25,736 bases of DNA from a virus. The notes under the pieces were generated by a model. That model did no database searches, was not told the origin of the DNA, and saw only the letters and a program-made list of their open reading frames with translations. Below, in pieces: positions 5,880-16,370 of the stretch. Made by a program: the position numbers and the translations under genes. Where the stretch lies: positions 1-25,736 of IMG/VR virus record IMGVR_UViG_3300009183_003072. One strand, written 5' to 3'. Position 1 is the stretch's first letter. The number at the start of each line of letters is the position of its first letter.

Positions 5880-5915
5880 ATGAACTAAACTAGTGCCTTA
5901 TTAGTGTACCACTAG
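5871..5915. repeat. Three CACTAG half-sites around the promoter
   Basis: CACTAG at 5871-5876, its inverse CTAGTG at 5890-5895, and CACTAG again at 5910-5915 form two overlapping inverted repeats with 13- and 14-base gaps. A near copy, TTAGTG, is at 5901-5906. The first copy overlaps the -35 region, and the last covers the stop codon of the amidotransferase gene. They could be operators, or the right-hand pair could be a transcript-end hairpin. Confidence 0.4.
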
Positions 5916-6805
5916 AACGGGATAGCGTCCTGTCCTAGTTTCTTTGTGTGTCCTACCCGCCCATTCGGGTACCCACACTGACATAGTTCAGCAACGTTAT
6001 CGCAATCAAAGCAAGAGCCACACCAGGTACATGTACCCATGCTCTCCCATAAATCAGCTTCTGATATCCATGCGCTGCAATTAAAACATTCTTGTACTTC
6101 TAATTCATTATCTGGTTTGTCTTGTTTGATTGTATCTTTGGCTAACTTATTATACCCAGCCCAAGCATACTCATCATCGTAATCACCATACCAACCAGCG
6201 TACCGGCCAGTAACATTTGATGTACCATAGGAATAACCTAAGTTACATGTATCGTTAGACCACCATACACCTGACTCATCTTCTTTGCCTGACTCAGCAT
6301 TGAGTAGATACATAGGGTGCTTAGCGGCAGGGTCAATAGTAATGATACATACCTTTGAACCAGATGTATATTCTTGTAGCATATTCCAGATGAAGTCATC
6401 ATCTAATGCGGTAACCCCACCTAATCTAGGTAGTAACTCTTCAGCAAATACTTTAGTATCACTGCGGTCATCTTTATCTGGTATCTCAATAGGTAAGATA
6501 CCGTTATGCCCAAGATAGGTACGGTCATCATGACCTACTGCAAATGGGTGGCAATTCTCTAGTGTGCGAGAACCATGAGTAGCAAACCGAGCATGCCACA
6601 TGGCATAGCCATCTTGATAGATAGCACGTTGTGCTAAGAACCTATTGATAGATTCATCTGCGTCCATGCTTTTCTCTACTATGATTCTGTTCTCACTAGG
6701 TACGGCAATGGCAAAGCCAAAGCCATGTGGATTATTTAATGCAGAGTTCTCCAACTTATCTCTTGACGGAGTAACTCCTGGTGGTAGTACGCATAACATA
6801 CACAT
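5912..6805 (-). CDS. Class II glutamine amidotransferase-like protein with zinc-ribbon tail, 297 aa
   Basis: An N-terminal-nucleophile amidotransferase: after Met removal, C2 of MCMLC is the predicted nucleophile. WHARFATHGSR (70-80), ENCHPF (83-88), LGHNG (99-103) and RSDTK (114-118) are the conserved glutamine-binding and oxyanion motifs of the GATase-II fold. The C-terminal third (about 237-283) has many Cys pairs (CFNC, CTWC, CFDC, CQC), so one or two zinc ribbons are fused. Class II enzymes release ammonia from glutamine. The gene follows the amidoligase by two bases, suggesting that it feeds that ligase. No synthase domain is attached. Its own substrate is unproven. Confidence 0.8.
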   Translation of the reverse strand: MCMLCVLPPGVTPSRDKLENSALNNPHGFGFAIAVPSENRIIVEKSMDADESINRFLAQRAIYQDGYAMWHARFATHGSRTLENCHPFAVGHDDRTYLGHNGILPIEIPDKDDRSDTKVFAEELLPRLGGVTALDDDFIWNMLQEYTSGSKVCIITIDPAAKHPMYLLNAESGKEDESGVWWSNDTCNLGYSYGTSNVTGRYAGWYGDYDDEYAWAGYNKLAKDTIKQDKPDNELEVQECFNCSAWISEADLWESMGTCTWCGSCFDCDNVAELCQCGYPNGRVGHTKKLGQDAIPF

Positions 6806-6807
6806 GA

Positions 6808-8127
6808 TTAGTCCTCTCTACTCTCATTGTGTGAATCGCTATTGAATGAACGATTGATTGTCTCAAACAAATTAGGATACTTATCGGTATTAGAACCGAT
6901 GTAACCTACATACTTTACCCAAGAGAATGGTTTATCTTTGGGGATTATCTTAAGCTCACGAGTATATTCAACTACTGAATGAACAAACTCTAAGCCAGAT
7001 AATATTCTAGGTATATGTAATGAACCCTTAAACACACGAACTTCTAATGTATTATCTGGCTCGACATTAACGGCAGCATACCTACCATTTGATTGACTCT
7101 TGTATTTAACCTTTGGAATAATCTTACCTGCGTCAGAGAAGCTAGCATAGTTAGAACTACGACCAGCAATCCTTTGTACTTGGCGTTCATTATCATAGAT
7201 TAGTTTAATGAATCTAATCTGATGGTCGTCATCATCGAATGCAGTACGACTTACATGTACGTGCAATCCACAAGTACTAGTATTCCAAGACCTGAATCTT
7301 AACTTCTTAAGTTCAGTTAGCATAGTCCAAGGAAAATTCTTTTGATACTCTTCAAGTGTATGCGGATGAGTAACAATCTCAAAGCCATTGACTAGAGAAC
7401 CATCACCCTTAAGATAGCCACGATACTTGCGATTACGCATTGGATTCATAGCATTATGTGCTAGTTCAGCACCTATTGCATAGTTGTCATTAGTATCTTC
7501 TACCTCTAACTCAAAGCCAAGGTAGTACTTACCTTCACCCCAAAATCTAGGGTCAGGTTTATAACTCCAGCTATGCACCCACTCGCTGTAATTTCTAGTG
7601 CGACTATCGCAACTATGACCGTCCTCTTCACCAAAGCAATCACCACAATCATCACACTCTATCTCTTGATTGTAACAATCACGGCACCTGCTATCTTGAT
7701 GTAACTCAGACCAGTATAAATCGTCTGCGTCACCAAACATTTGATTACATTCATCACATGCAACATAATCAGGATTGTTTTCTTCCCATTGTTCTGAACA
7801 TGATGGGCAGTATAATTTGTTATGAATATAATTCATCTTAACTTTAGGTACACCGCCGGTGTGCCATCCACCCCAACGACTACCTAAAAAATAGTGATTA
7901 CATTCATCACATTGTGTAGCACATCTTTTATGACCATAGATTATTTCAAGGCAGTCATTGTCAGGAGATATTCTTGCAGACATTTGTACCTTTGAGTATC
8001 TATAATTCCAGACGGCGTCAACATCACCTGTTGTGTCTGGCTCTGCATATATGTCATTACATACACCACATACATCTCGTATGGTTTCGGTAACGACATC
8101 ACTTGATGTCTCTACTACATCAGGCAT
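6808..8127 (-). CDS. Amidoligase (glutamine-synthetase-like COOH-NH2 ligase) with N-terminal zinc ribbons, 439 aa
   Basis: Residues about 200-420 match the Amidoligase_2 family: GFELEVE (204-210), DGSL (242-245), GFEIVTHP (248-255), CGLHVHVS (286-293), and a late VNVEPDNTLEVRVFKGSL. The acids and His pair fit the metal and ATP site of glutamine-synthetase-like ligases, which join a carboxylate to an amine. Residues 20-175 hold at least four cysteine knuckles (CGVC, CDEC, CPSC, CDEC, CRDC, CDDCGDC), an unusually long zinc-ribbon array. The start has AAGGAA seven bases upstream. With the amidotransferase it forms a likely two-gene amidation or peptide-modifying system. The target is unknown. 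Confidence 0.8.
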   Translation of the reverse strand: MPDVVETSSDVVTETIRDVCGVCNDIYAEPDTTGDVDAVWNYRYSKVQMSARISPDNDCLEIIYGHKRCATQCDECNHYFLGSRWGGWHTGGVPKVKMNYIHNKLYCPSCSEQWEENNPDYVACDECNQMFGDADDLYWSELHQDSRCRDCYNQEIECDDCGDCFGEEDGHSCDSRTRNYSEWVHSWSYKPDPRFWGEGKYYLGFELEVEDTNDNYAIGAELAHNAMNPMRNRKYRGYLKGDGSLVNGFEIVTHPHTLEEYQKNFPWTMLTELKKLRFRSWNTSTCGLHVHVSRTAFDDDDHQIRFIKLIYDNERQVQRIAGRSSNYASFSDAGKIIPKVKYKSQSNGRYAAVNVEPDNTLEVRVFKGSLHIPRILSGLEFVHSVVEYTRELKIIPKDKPFSWVKYVGYIGSNTDKYPNLFETINRSFNSDSHNESRED

Positions 8128-10091: not shown

Positions 10092-10491
10092 ACGATACGT
10101 ATTCGTCGCAGTTAACGCACTTAACCTGCGCTAGCGTTGTTAGATGACACCAGTTACAAACAACTTGATTGTTTGGAATTTCAGTGTCATCGTCGAAGGA
10201 TATAGATTCTGCACGAGCATGAATCTCACCTTCGTAGTACTCCTTGCGAAGTATAGGCTCCCCGTCTTTGTCGATACCGACTTTAACGATGGAACTTATC
10301 CAGTCATGGCCACTGGCTTGGGTTGTATATATCCACTGGTACTTGTATTGAAGGTTGCCTTCATCTACAAGTTCATGGGCTAGGTCTGCTACTCGAGCGT
10401 CTGCAAGGTCTTGGCAGTTATCGCACAAGGCGTCCATTTGCATGCAGTCGTAGCATTGGTTGGTAATGTTTATGCCGTTATTAGGCTCCAC
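10090..10491 (-). CDS. Zinc-knuckle hypothetical protein, 133 aa
   Basis: Two cysteine clusters, CYDCMQMDALCDNC near residues 13-26 and CNWCHL with VKCVNC near 112-129, frame a beta-rich middle (YKYQWIYTT, VKVGIDKDGEPILRKEYY). It looks like a protein with a zinc ribbon at each end. The start is GTG at 10491 inside the end of the upstream gene, so translation is probably coupled. No family is recognised. Confidence 0.65.
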   Translation of the reverse strand: MEPNNGINITNQCYDCMQMDALCDNCQDLADARVADLAHELVDEGNLQYKYQWIYTTQASGHDWISSIVKVGIDKDGEPILRKEYYEGEIHARAESISFDDDTEIPNNQVVCNWCHLTTLAQVKCVNCDEYVS

Positions 10492-10696
10492 TTACTTCTC
10501 CTTCGGTTCCGTCGGTTAAGTGAAAGAACCAGCGAGCAACTTCTGCGTTGGTAACACCAACGATAGGTATTTGCTTACGCTTTACCATGCGTAACGCTAA
10601 CTTGTTAGGTGAGTATCCACCTATGGTCTTGCCGGTCTTTTTTTGAACCTTAGGTCTTTTCTTAGATGCTTTACCATTAGGTCTTGTAGTATTCAT
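10481..10696 (-). CDS. Small basic protein, 71 aa, first gene of the leftward block
   Basis: The first 40 residues are rich in Lys and Arg (MNTTRPNGKASKKRPKVQKK), suggesting nucleic-acid contact. The rest (GVTNAEVARWFFHLTDG) is a short folded part. I chose the ATG at 10696, with GAAGGG about seven bases upstream, over a reading that begins at 10717. It directly borders the structured non-coding region and could act on it. That link is inference. Confidence 0.6.
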   Translation of the reverse strand: MNTTRPNGKASKKRPKVQKKTGKTIGGYSPNKLALRMVKRKQIPIVGVTNAEVARWFFHLTDGTEGEVSGA

Positions 10697-10737
10697 TTTT
10701 ACCCTTCTGACTCTCAACCTTTGAAAGTCACCTACAA

Positions 10738-10832
10738 TTGGACACCCTAACGCACCTGAGCGTATTCCAGCTCAGGCTCCGAGTCGCGCTCTAAGGGCTG
10801 AAGGCCCTTGCGACTTGCGGACGGGTGTACAA
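10738..10832. ncRNA. Candidate structured RNA, three-stem fold
   Basis: A closing stem pairs TTG-g-ACACCC (10738-10747) with GGGTGT-a-CAA (10823-10832), nine pairs with one mismatch. Inside are hairpin A, CCTGAGC (10755-10761) with GCTCAGG (10770-10776), and hairpin B. In hairpin B, AGTCGC (10782-10787) with GCGACT (10810-10815) stacks on AAGGGC (10793-10798) with GCCCTT (10804-10809). The fold resembles a cloverleaf lacking one arm. There is no T-loop motif or CCA end, so it is not a normal tRNA. The strand is not decided by the sequence. Confidence 0.5.
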
Positions 10833-10900
10833 TGGGAACACCAGCGAACTCTGTCTGTGTCCAGCAGTAGGCAGTAAGGCAGTTACTCTTTAACAACATT

Positions 10901-11043
10901 GAACGGCGCCAGCCGTTCCTTGCTTTTAAATCTTGTGCTTGGCATGGGATTTTTATTTAAATCCTGAAGCACACGGAGCGCCTGTTTAAGGCGTGGAGTG
11001 AGCAGTCCTGCAGACGCCTGACTGTATAGCAGTACAGAGCGTC
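10901..11043. repeat. Run of four hairpins
   Basis: In order: GAACGGC/GCCGTTC (10901-10918, four-base loop); TGTGCTT/AAGCACA (10934-10973) enclosing GGATTT/AAATCC; CGCCT/AGGCG (10979-10993); and GACGC/GCGTC enclosing CTGTA/TACAG (11013-11043). All stems are perfect. Together with the neighbours they look like one extended folded RNA rather than separate sites. Confidence 0.5.
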
Positions 11044-11050
11044 AGTCTTG

Positions 11051-11083
11051 AAAGCCGGAGGGTCGTATGACCCGGAGGCTTTT
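11051..11083 (+). terminator. Rightward terminator-like hairpin before the terminase
   Basis: AAAGCC (11051-11056) pairs with GGCTTT (11077-11082) and GGGTC (11060-11064) with GACCC (11069-11073), around a four-base loop. TTTT then AAAT follow on the plus strand. It would stop RNA entering from the left, that is, a transcript of the structured region, about 280 bases before the terminase gene. The T run is short, so termination could be partial or regulated. Confidence 0.55.
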
Positions 11084-11144
11084 AAATGTCAGTCGTAAGT
11101 AGTTATGTATCTCTCCCTAAAATTATTTGTGGTTATAGTGACCC

Positions 11145-11186
11145 TTGCTAAATCAGTACAAAATAGGACATAACGACCTATTTAGC
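11145..11186 (+). promoter_or_regulatory. Candidate late promoter with overlapping palindromes
   Basis: TTGCTA (11145-11150) and CATAAC (11169-11174), 18 bases apart, each match four of six consensus positions. The palindrome AAATAGG/CCTATTT (11161-11167, 11177-11183) straddles the -10. A second one, GCTAAAT/ATTTAGC (11147-11153, 11180-11186), shares bases with it, so as RNA or cruciform the two exclude each other. This looks like an operator or switch at the start of the rightward block. Confidence 0.4.
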
Positions 11187-11243
11187 ATAGGTGATAAAAA
11201 TAGTTGAGAATAAAACGTCCGTTTTACCTGTTTGGACGGATTA

Positions 11244-11309
11244 GTACTGTATGTAGCAGTAAGTTATTCGCCAGGCTTTTATATAGCCTGGCTCATACAG
11301 TTACAGTAC
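11244..11309. repeat. Nested hairpin just upstream of the terminase gene
   Basis: An inner stem GCCAGGC/GCCTGGC (11270-11276, 11286-11292) is enclosed by ACTGTAT/ATACAGT (11246-11252, 11295-11301). An alternative outer stem is GTACTGTA/TACAGTAC (11244-11251, 11302-11309). A smaller CGTCC/GGACG pair precedes it (11216-11238). It ends 50 bases before the terminase ATG. It may be a packaging site or a leader control element. Confidence 0.5.
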
Positions 11310-11359
11310 AGGTGACTGACAGACAGTGTAGGACGGCGAAAGACTATCTAAAGGACACC

Positions 11360-13246
11360 ATGACATTTAAGGCGGGCGAAGAGCATTTTAAAGTTAAGGC
11401 TCTAGCCGAGGCAAAAGCTAAGGTTATAGAGTTAGTGAGCCAAGGTGCTACTACCCACCAAGCTATGAATCTAGCTGGCAAGAAACCAGATACGGTTCGT
11501 CAGTGGATGGTCAGGGATGCTGACTTTGCAAAGGAGTTAGCCAAGGCTAAGGAACTAGGTGAGAGTCTCACTCTAGCCAACCTAGGGTATGACAAGAAGG
11601 ATTTACCCTTTGCTGAATTTTCAAAAAATTTTTTAGACCAGACGGTCTTCCCACATCATCAAGACTGGGTCGACCTGTTAGAGGGACGGGAACCTTCCTG
11701 GCTTCACCCTAGCATAATATATGACAAGGCTGATAAGTCTAGGATTCTTATTAACGTGCCACCGGAGCACGCTAAGAGCACGGTTATTACCGTGAACTAC
11801 TCAACATACCGTATCGCTCTCGACCCTAATGTTAGAATCATCGTCGTTTCTAAGACACTGATAAAGGCACGAGAATACGTGTACGCAATCAAGCAACGTC
11901 TCTCACATCCAAGATGGCTTAAGATGCAAAACGCATTTGGTCCTCAAGGTGGGTGGAAAGAAGACGCAGATACTTGGCGAACCGATACAGTGTATCTCGG
12001 GAGCGATGCTCGTAACTCAAGTGAGAAAGACCCTACCATTCAAGCTCTTGGTATGGGTGGGCAGATTTATGGAGCCCGTGCAGATTTAATTATTCTTGAC
12101 GACGTGATAACCACAGCCAACGCCCATGAATGGGAAAAACAACTTAACTGGCTGCAAAAAGAAGTTATCACTCGTCTCGGCAAAAACGGCAAGCTATTAA
12201 TAGTGGGGACTAGAATTGCGCCAAGTGACCTATATAAGGAACTTCGTAGTCCTGAGCATTGGTCTGGTGGTAGGTCTCCCTTTACTTATATGGGTATGCC
12301 TGCTGTACTTGAGTATGATGTTGAGCCAAAAAATTGGGTTACTCTTTGGAAAGAATCAGATGTACCCTGGGATGGCGATACAGATACACCACAAGAAAAC
12401 GGCTTCTATCCCAAGTGGGATGGACAAACATTATTCAAACGTCGTTCCGAGGTTACTCCTACTACGTGGGCTCTTGTCTATCAACAAGAAGACGTACAAG
12501 AAAACTCTATCTTCCCACCAGCTTTGGTACAGGGAAGCATACTCGGGGCTAGAAGAGTCGGACCTTTAAAGCCAGGAGCATCAGGTCATCCTAAAAAAGT
12601 TGAGGGCTACACCATTATTGGTATGGACCCAGCTATTGCCGGACATGCAGCTTTAGTTGCAATAACTTTTAATAGAGCTGATGGTCGTATCTACGTACTA
12701 GATTGCTTGAACATGGCAGAGCCTAGTTACCAAAAGATACGTGATGCTATAGAAGCTATGACCATTAAATATGCACCCCAAGAAATACGAATTGAAATCA
12801 ACGCATTTCAGAAAGCATTTGAATTAGATGACAGCTTACGACAGTGGCTTGCTGGATACGGCGTACGGCTTAATTCTCACCATACAGGAAAAAATAAATG
12901 GGACTCGAACTTTGGAGTTGCCTCCATGTCAAGCTTATTCGGAACTACTCAAGACGGTAAGTTTCAAAACAACAACCTCCTCGAACTCCCATCAAGTGAT
13001 GGCTCAGAAGGAATCAAAGCTTTAGTACAGCAGTTGATTACTTGGAAGCCAGACACTAGAGGCAAGACAGACTGTGTTATGGCTTTGTGGTTTGCAATCA
13101 TTAGGGCAAGAGAATTGATTCAAAGCGGTACAAGGGTGTCACCTTATTTAGATAATAGGTGGGCTACTAGAGCTCAGATGGAAAAAAGAAACTCAATCAA
13201 CTTAGACGATGCTTTTAGTGAGCAATGGTCTGAAGTCTATGGTTAG
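11360..13246 (+). CDS. terL: Terminase large subunit with N-terminal helix-turn-helix, 628 aa
   Basis: The packaging motor that cuts and pumps DNA into the prohead. Walker A is VPPEHAKST (133-141) and Walker B LIILDD (243-248). The nuclease acids are D423 in IIGMDPAIAG, E479 in IRIEINAF and D571 in KTDCVMALW. Residues about 15-65 (KVIELVSQGATTHQAMNLAG, then VRQWMVRDADFAKEL) read as a helix-turn-helix of the kind used by small terminase subunits, and no separate small subunit is seen. I chose the ATG at 11360, with AAAGGA just upstream. The open frame extends back to a TTG at 11204, but that part lies over hairpins and has no Shine-Dalgarno. Confidence 0.9.
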   Translation: MTFKAGEEHFKVKALAEAKAKVIELVSQGATTHQAMNLAGKKPDTVRQWMVRDADFAKELAKAKELGESLTLANLGYDKKDLPFAEFSKNFLDQTVFPHHQDWVDLLEGREPSWLHPSIIYDKADKSRILINVPPEHAKSTVITVNYSTYRIALDPNVRIIVVSKTLIKAREYVYAIKQRLSHPRWLKMQNAFGPQGGWKEDADTWRTDTVYLGSDARNSSEKDPTIQALGMGGQIYGARADLIILDDVITTANAHEWEKQLNWLQKEVITRLGKNGKLLIVGTRIAPSDLYKELRSPEHWSGGRSPFTYMGMPAVLEYDVEPKNWVTLWKESDVPWDGDTDTPQENGFYPKWDGQTLFKRRSEVTPTTWALVYQQEDVQENSIFPPALVQGSILGARRVGPLKPGASGHPKKVEGYTIIGMDPAIAGHAALVAITFNRADGRIYVLDCLNMAEPSYQKIRDAIEAMTIKYAPQEIRIEINAFQKAFELDDSLRQWLAGYGVRLNSHHTGKNKWDSNFGVASMSSLFGTTQDGKFQNNNLLELPSSDGSEGIKALVQQLITWKPDTRGKTDCVMALWFAIIRARELIQSGTRVSPYLDNRWATRAQMEKRNSINLDDAFSEQWSEVYG

Positions 13247-13253
13247 GATTTAA

Positions 13254-14009
13254 ATGGCTAGCAGCAGTCCAATGGAACTAGGTAAAACTAAGGGCCTCAA
13301 ACCAGCTATATCTCCAACTCAAGCAAGAGCCTTGCGTACCGGTGTTGATATTATATCTAGTGTAGTTGGTCCTGGTAAAGCTAAAGGTTTATCTATAGGA
13401 GTTACTAAAGCTGCACGTCTTGCTAAAGAAGCTAAAGAGATTGCAGAAAAAGCAGCTGGGTTTTCTAAACCTAGAGTTCCAGTAGTTTCGAGAGAAATTG
13501 ACTATAGTCCTACTCCAGCTAAACCTGTTATAGTTAAACCAGAAGAAAAAAAATTATTTCGTTCAGTTCCAGAGCCTAAAGAAACTGGCCTAGATTTTGC
13601 TATAAAACAATCTAAAACATTTGGACTTGGTTCAGTATCACCTGAACAAAGAGCAGCTATTGAATTTCAGATGAACAGAGGGCTACGCCCTGATATGGCT
13701 CCTTTGAGAACTAATCCACTTCCTCCAGAGGCAGTAAGTATTCGTCCACCTTTAGCTCCGGGTATGCGTAAATGGACACCAGAAACTAAAAAAGTTGTTG
13801 CGCCCATGAAGCCAGCATTACCTAAGCCACAGATATTTGATATTAAATCATCTGGTAAAACAAAACCTTTAACTCCAGCACAAAGAGAACGTATAGCTGA
13901 AGAGCAGGCACAACGTGCTGAAGGTTTAAGACCATCTGAATATGAAATGACTACTAAAGAAAAACTTGATATGTTAAAACAACTTCGTAAAGAAGTTAAG
14001 GGAGATTAA
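13254..14009 (+). CDS. Pro/Lys-rich hypothetical protein, 251 aa
   Basis: This lies seven bases after the terminase, with AGGA before the ATG. Residues 20-70 form Ala/Lys helices (AARLAKEAKEIAEKAAGF). The middle is a long Pro, Lys and Val-rich linker with no clear fold, and the C terminus is a charged helix (EEQAQRAEGL, then KEKLDMLKQLRKEV). Its position between terminase and portal suggests a virion or packaging accessory. I do not recognise a family. Confidence 0.7.
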   Translation: MASSSPMELGKTKGLKPAISPTQARALRTGVDIISSVVGPGKAKGLSIGVTKAARLAKEAKEIAEKAAGFSKPRVPVVSREIDYSPTPAKPVIVKPEEKKLFRSVPEPKETGLDFAIKQSKTFGLGSVSPEQRAAIEFQMNRGLRPDMAPLRTNPLPPEAVSIRPPLAPGMRKWTPETKKVVAPMKPALPKPQIFDIKSSGKTKPLTPAQRERIAEEQAQRAEGLRPSEYEMTTKEKLDMLKQLRKEVKGD

Positions 14010-15800: not shown

Positions 15801-16370
15801 GTGACGGCTATTGTTGGAATTCAAGGCAAAGGTTGGGCTGTCCTAGCAGCAGATTCTATGACTACATATACAGATAGACCGTATGTAGCAAAAGGTTGCG
15901 ACAAGATAGTTAAAATTGGTGAGTATCTAATTGCAGTAGCAGGTGATGCTATAGCAGGAGATATCCTTAATAATTTATGGCAACCACCTAAAGTAATTAA
16001 GACGCAAGACCCAGATAGATTTATGATGATTAGAGTTTTACCATCTATCAAGCAAGCATTAAATGAAGCAGGCTATGAACCAACACCTAAGGGCAAGAGC
16101 GATGATGATTCTGGCTGGGATGCGTTAATTTGTTTTAATGGAAAGTTATATCAAGTTAGTGATGACTATGGATATATGCGAGACGATAGAGGATTTTACG
16201 GAATTGGTTCAGGCGGTGGGCTAGCTCTTGGTGCATTAGTCGCAATGGAAGTTGAAACTAAAACACATGCTAAAGCAACAAGTGCGGCAAAGAAAGCAGT
16301 TAATGCAGCAATCCAATATAATATTTGGTGCGGTGGAACAGTTAATATCAAAACTCAATTTACTAAGTAG
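15801..16370 (+). CDS. Proteasome/HslV-fold N-terminal-threonine hydrolase, candidate head-maturation protease, 189 aa
   Basis: Removal of the initiator residue would leave T2 as an N-terminal threonine (TAIVGIQG). Counting from it, D17 lies in LAADSMTT and a Lys near position 34 in DKIVKIG, the catalytic set of proteasome beta subunits and HslV. LIAVAGDAIAGD and GIGSGGGLALGAL are the family's other signature strands. There is no propeptide. The GTG start has GGGGGA about five bases upstream. It sits just after the portal, where tailed phages normally encode the prohead protease, so capsid maturation is the leading role. Degrading host proteins is an alternative. Confidence 0.8.
   Translation: MTAIVGIQGKGWAVLAADSMTTYTDRPYVAKGCDKIVKIGEYLIAVAGDAIAGDILNNLWQPPKVIKTQDPDRFMMIRVLPSIKQALNEAGYEPTPKGKSDDDSGWDALICFNGKLYQVSDDYGYMRDDRGFYGIGSGGGLALGALVAMEVETKTHAKATSAAKKAVNAAIQYNIWCGGTVNIKTQFTK

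Follow-up and report, generated by a model that had tools for sequence, protein, structure and literature searches.

The window, by which we mean the whole stretch of DNA that was analysed, is an IMG/VR virus record of 25,736 bases. Between a leftward gene and the rightward gene of the large terminase it holds a gap at positions 10697-11359; the preliminary description, made from the letters alone, had given about 660 bases without a credible gene, and its coordinates were correct (663 bases). The left border is the first ATG (10696-10694) of the open reading frame 10481-10717 on the minus strand, and the right border is the ATG of the terminase frame at 11360. The list of open reading frames opens the terminase frame at a TTG at 11204, and the stretch that this would add ahead of the ATG is the conserved non-coding element.

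The preliminary description could not match the gap to tmRNA, RNase P RNA, 6S, GOLLD or ROOL, and our searches agree with it: Rfam 15 gave no family match for the gap, either at curated thresholds or at E values up to 5, and ARAGORN reported nothing in it. A DNA search of positions 10400-11700 against the phage collection returned no match, and no paper describing this element was found in the open-licence literature with a limited set of search terms. The features of the region are the following, with the basis of each in brackets.

10481..10696, minus strand: leftward gene of 71 aa, counted from the first ATG (Pfam and PHROG gave no match)
10709..10729: hairpin GACT...AGTC next to the leftward gene, on its upstream side (compared with close relatives)
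10742..10828: branched fold with closing stem ACACCC/GGGTGT (alignment with close relatives)
10901..10918: perfect hairpin GAACGGC/GCCGTTC (absent from relatives L204-L207)
10978..10993: hairpin HL, GCGCC...GGCG (homology judged by position)
11000..11108: putative direct terminal repeat, present as a single copy at the junction (offsets from relatives; ends uncertain by several bases)
11013..11043: hairpin GACGC...GCGTC, within the putative repeat (folding)
11051..11085: hairpin AAAGCC-GGA-GGGTC/GACCC-GGA-GGCTTT, ending in TTAA (motif and partner-arm scan)
11107..11143, plus strand: block A, GTATCTCT...TATAGTGACC, conserved, beginning at the predicted right cut (relatives' upstream regions)
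11216..11238, plus strand: P1 hairpin CGTCC...GGACG (relatives)
11261..11301, plus strand: P3 and P2 hairpin, parted by a TC/TC bubble (strong covariation)
11360..13246, plus strand: large terminase, in which N-terminal residues 16-68 resemble a small subunit (profile matches)

Block A may perhaps be a promoter; a search of the plus strand for consensus promoters found none.

Secondary structure in the window and its relatives

With arms of at least 6 bases and loops of 3-14, the gap contains 9 perfect inverted repeats, against a mean of 1.68 and a maximum of 6 in 300 dinucleotide shuffles; with arms of at least 7 there are 4, against a mean of 0.40 and a maximum of 3. The preliminary description had counted at least ten: the dense excess stands, while the exact count hinges on the arm length. 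A separate repeat-finding program, run with its own settings, listed no inverted repeats in the gap. The density is high and not unique, because other 663-base stretches of the window reach 7. Folded whole, the gap gave z values of -7.78 on the plus strand and -6.17 on the minus strand, and none of 20 shuffles was as good on either; a structure that folds no better than shuffled sequence, which had been named as an outcome against the claim, was thus not what we observed.

The 5' half was compared between the window and six close relatives, with L210 left out of the alignment. The hairpin at 10709..10729 reads GAAT...ATTC in three of the six (L204, L205, L207), so that both of its arms have changed, and in the branched fold at 10742..10828 the closing stem is kept, with L204 and L206 carrying exchanged inner hairpins.

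The hairpin excess is general among relatives, which goes beyond what could be seen in a single sequence. Near-duplicate removal kept 73 of 183 element sequences, 45 of which had enough flank for folding z values and 56 for mismatch, G-U and hairpin counts. The 570-base upstream regions of these 56 hold on average 2.59 perfect hairpins with arms of at least 7, the averages being 0.23 for shuffled sequence and 0.24 for 50 coding stretches of the terminase. Across the 45, the mean folding z is lowest at three places relative to the core: -400 to -281 (-2.6 on the plus strand, -2.3 on the minus), -200 to -81 (-2.5 and -2.1) and 0 to +119 (-2.8 and -3.0); four coding stretches gave values between -0.7 and +0.2. 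The two strands fold about equally well.

Conservation upstream of the terminase

Relatives were collected with a terminase search of IMG/VR, which gave at least 599 stretches; the best 80 were taken, and 70 of these entered the upstream set. In most of the relatives read, the order upstream of the terminase is GACCC...TTAA, then GTATCTCT...TATAGT, then the core P1 and then P3/P2. The core P1 reads GTTCG...GAACGG in relatives and GTCCG...GGACGG in the window. The element pattern missed 6 of 71 upstream stretches, five of which carry variants; the sixth, L021, is the sole stretch of the 71 without any visible core element. Scanning IMG/VR with the P1 pattern (at least 120 stretches) added at least 117 new loci, and in 114 of the 117 listed the terminase follows P1 on the same strand, mostly 130-180 bases on, the remaining three running off the available sequence before it is reached. 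In some relatives (L023, L030, L033) the distance from core to terminase is 206-342 bases, owing to added sequence. In L021 and L060, suspected tRNA-like stretches beside the terminase did not hold up when checked.

Of 191 distinct lake-phage upstream regions, 187 contain the motif GACC(C/G)...TTAA, 186 of them at 110-175 bases before the core, compared with 33 of 955 single-base shuffles in which it was allowed anywhere in the stretch. The conservation of P1 and of the GACCC motif is overstated by these figures, since the search patterns behind most loci already prescribe parts of the two. A partner arm that completes the GACCC hairpin is present in 107 of 168 regions; the hairpin was rejected as a universal structure, with 61 of the 168 below the score limit, four of them lacking the motif.

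Just before P1, at 10-40 bases, four relatives (L028, L057, L073, L089) have dyads like TGTGA-N6-TCACA, which resemble the sites of CRP-type regulators; the Streptomyces phage ZooBear has TGTGACCTGCATCACA.

Compensatory changes and the question of DNA or RNA

The elements were sorted into 77 of group A, 30 of group B and 4 others, and alignments were made of all 38 distinct group A segments and of 21 of the 22 distinct group B rows, L017 being left out as wrongly sorted. In group A, all 15 proposed P3/P2 pairs show at least one change on both sides, and the covariation score is 0.540, compared with 0.210 (sd 0.017) in shuffles, of which none in 500 was as high, and with at most 0.147 when the partner was slid; these two kinds of control model relatedness incompletely. 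Homologues without covarying pairs had been named beforehand as an outcome against a folded structure, and the structure is not refuted by what the alignment contains. A further measure on P3/P2, the count of further pair types, gave no excess: 430 of the 500 shuffles scored as high. Conservation is poor at the four outer P3 pairs, which are unpaired in 18-25 of the 38 segments, and half of the cells are unpaired in alignment columns 15-27. Group B relatives have a different arrangement, in which both sides have changed at 9 of the 18 pairs. The inner pair of P1 is T-A in 153 of 182 elements and C-G in 29, with no mixed case; P1 changes as a unit.

Covariation indicates that pairing is kept, and the kind of pair that is used bears on whether the folded molecule is DNA or RNA. 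Among the ten best-kept P3/P2 pairs (ten inner pairs, picked after seeing the table) there is no G-U in 356 paired cells; 14 G-U cells occur in the other five P3/P2 pairs and 5 in group B. Hairpins with a single mismatch, counted in the 56 relatives, have 10 G-T, 8 A-C and 30 other mismatches, so that neither strand is favoured. In helices of at least 5 pairs, the G-U share at two upstream places is 0.085 and 0.090 (shuffles 0.161 and 0.153), and at the core it is 0.159 on the plus strand and 0.063 on the minus (shuffles 0.188), a difference between strands that leans towards RNA at the core. In a single case (L073:357-394) the P3/P2 bubble reads GA/GA where the others have TC/TC, which is what the opposite strand of the same hairpin would show, as if the hairpin had been inverted. 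Taken together, the wobble, mismatch, strand and L073 results lean towards DNA, short of proof, and the gap probably does not serve as an RNA, or at least not solely as one. Stems that covary in the gaps of phage genomes may belong to DNA instead of RNA, and a claim of RNA should be preceded by counts of wobble pairs and of strand preference.

Terminase relationships and genome ends

The start of the terminase resembles small terminase subunits (residues 16-68; E 0.00025). Its only PDB matches, both weak, are DNA maturase B (4bij, E 0.00016), which we take to be the protein of T7, and a large terminase (8dgc). Its named relatives with complete records are those of Streptomyces phages of the Beephvirinae, at 43-45% identity, so that the terminase is related to that of phages with terminal repeats through the Beephvirinae and, weakly, through 4bij. 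From these Streptomyces relatives an actinobacterial host may be guessed. A terminase scan of genome contigs confirmed no prophage relative among 10 stretches.

In the gap before the terminase, six Beephvirinae records (ZooBear, Kumquat, WRightOn, FlowerPower, Dennebes and Stella) carry direct terminal repeats that match exactly and span 253-274 bp; every one of them has its right end 23 bases after TTAA. The pattern for the full GACCC motif matched in four of the six, and in the remaining two a related stretch precedes TTAA, with the offset unchanged. The gap stretch of the Streptomyces phages is present twice in all 19 records matched. Their ends resemble the predicted ends of the window phage in lying in a non-coding gap before a related terminase, with leftward genes on the other side of the gap (ZooBear), and in having a motif that closes with TTAA, which in these phages stands 23 bases before the right end. 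They differ in the length of the repeat, which would be about 109 bp in the window, and, in ZooBear and Kumquat, in having no visible GGGTC partner arm before GACCC. Eight bases, GGAGTGAG, occur in the window and across the right cut of ZooBear, a match so short that it is weak evidence.

In the lake-phage contigs, 12 right ends fall within 100 bases after TTAA (at 1, 14, 19, 23, 23, 24, 27, 53, 66, 76, 80 and 84); five of these (L214, L230, L237, L318, L365) are at 19-27 and seven are elsewhere. L301 was dropped as a right end, and L357 as a near-whole contig ending at the predicted place, because each of these contigs continues past it. On the left side, among the matches listed for contigs with GACCCCAGACTGTTTAAW, 12 have their start 66-76 bases before GACCC, and the starts of another 16 are spread over other positions within 400 bases of it; five of the starts were separately confirmed as contig ends. 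The cluster was weaker in later scans: one gave a single start near the motif, at 110, and another gave starts at 52, 63, 107 and 109, plus one at 193 whose status as a contig end is uncertain. Further starts form a second group at 107-114 (L257, L275, L308, L331, L349, L369), and in the first four of these the start is at or near the foot of another hairpin. Just to the left of the main start cluster, hairpins of at least 6 pairs are present in a fraction of 0.43 of 75 regions, compared with 0.11 in shuffles, and 22 of these 32 hairpins have their foot at -74 to -78; the site of HL in the window matches this place. A direct repeat at both ends of one contig was found in none of the lake-phage contigs examined.

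When the offsets of relatives are transferred to the window, the predicted cuts are at about 11000 on the left (GTGGAGT|GAGC) and at about 11108 on the right, and the window phage would thus carry a terminal repeat of about 109 bp at approximately 11000-11108.

The gap as a probable packaging junction

The explanation that we favour, and consider probable, is that the gap is the junction of a concatemer and contains a terminal repeat of about 109 bp, which is flanked by DNA hairpins for terminase recognition or end duplication. The element has a fixed place beside the terminase, the motif and the covariation accompany it, and the 23-base offset holds in the six sequenced relatives. The terminase, with its small-subunit-like stretch joined to the large subunit, would bind the junction and cut near 11000 and near 11108, GACCC...TTAA setting the right cut about 23 bases downstream, and the two cuts would leave every virion genome with about 109 bp directly repeated at its ends. 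The hairpins on either side (HL, GGGTC/GACCC and P3-P2) would act as DNA, in the form of cruciforms or folded single strands, and would work during replication or processing, either marking the junction or priming the copying of the repeat. Points against packaging are the seven right ends that lie elsewhere, the weakness of the start cluster in later scans, the second group of starts, the 61 of 168 regions that lack the GACCC hairpin and the G-U share at the core; moreover, hairpin-rich DNA can itself break assemblies. The preliminary description had offered two readings, an RNA fold of several domains and a compound site for control and packaging; its packaging half gained good indirect support from the relatives' ends at the same place, with a similar motif and the 23-base offset, and from the contig-end clusters, and its RNA half comes second, with pairs that covary and with G-U nearly absent from the best-kept ones.

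An old question is how a phage with direct terminal repeats gains both copies of its end when each concatemer junction holds one. In T7, according to work by Chung, Nardone and Hinkle in 1990, concatemer processing reportedly involves a hairpin end, proposed to prime the copying of the repeat. The window shares with T7 a short terminal repeat (putative here), a terminase of the maturase B kind and inverted repeats at the junction; a hairpin intermediate is reported for T7 alone, and the likeness is drawn from features of the junction and the terminase. More tentatively, and as a possibility rather than an expectation, the lake-phage group may have a structure-coded packaging signal in DNA, in which covarying hairpins, one with a TC/TC bubble, flank a short repeat, the packaging machinery reads shape and not letters, and the hairpins drive end duplication. 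In the lake-phage family one junction exists in many natural variants, which allow motif, cut offset and hairpins to be tested apart from one another.

Transcription of the gap together with the terminase, as a structured leader RNA of the late operon that controls translation or alters RNA polymerase for the long rightward operon, is the second-best explanation after packaging, and we think it rather unlikely. It would account for the place before the terminase on the same strand in nearly all loci listed, for the covarying pairs of P3/P2 and group B and for the higher G-U share of the plus strand at the core, and it has a precedent in the put RNAs of HK022, which form stem-loops where a long phage operon begins and change RNA polymerase. 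The gap likewise has stem-loops heading a long phage operon; it differs from the put RNAs in its best-kept pairs without G-U and in sitting at likely genome ends. The balanced G-T and A-C mismatches, the GA/GA bubble of L073 (one case) and the lack of both an Rfam match and a plus-strand consensus promoter also argue against a leader RNA. GOLLD, ROOL and the phi29 packaging RNA are large or packaging-related structured RNAs borne by phages, and from these the gap is set apart by the Rfam result at both thresholds.

The inverted repeats might instead be operators or promoters only, that is, protein-binding dyads on double-stranded DNA that steer two divergent gene blocks. The divergent blocks, the conserved block A and the dyads before P1 in some relatives (L057, for example, by eye) are in line with this, and P1 alone would fit it; the arm letters of P2 and P3 vary freely with pairing kept, unlike those of a sequence-specific dyad, and we hold this explanation to be very improbable. 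Still less credit is given to a mutational by-product, in which template switching in replication keeps perfecting palindromes that have no function: it would explain the perfect arms, the few G-U pairs and the differences in hairpins among close relatives, whereas the place, the TC/TC bubble and the block order are kept in relatives, one of which alone departs in the bubble.

Other genes of the window

On the minus strand, a class-II glutamine amidotransferase-like gene (5912-6805) adjoins an amidoligase-like gene (6808-8127), with weak to moderate matches. On the plus strand, the gene at 13254-14009, between terminase and portal, has no PHROG or Pfam match, and the same slot in ZooBear and Kumquat is annotated as an endolysin. 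Within the head gene block, 15801-16370 on the plus strand matches the HslV-like peptidase family (phrog_1040, E 1e-27).
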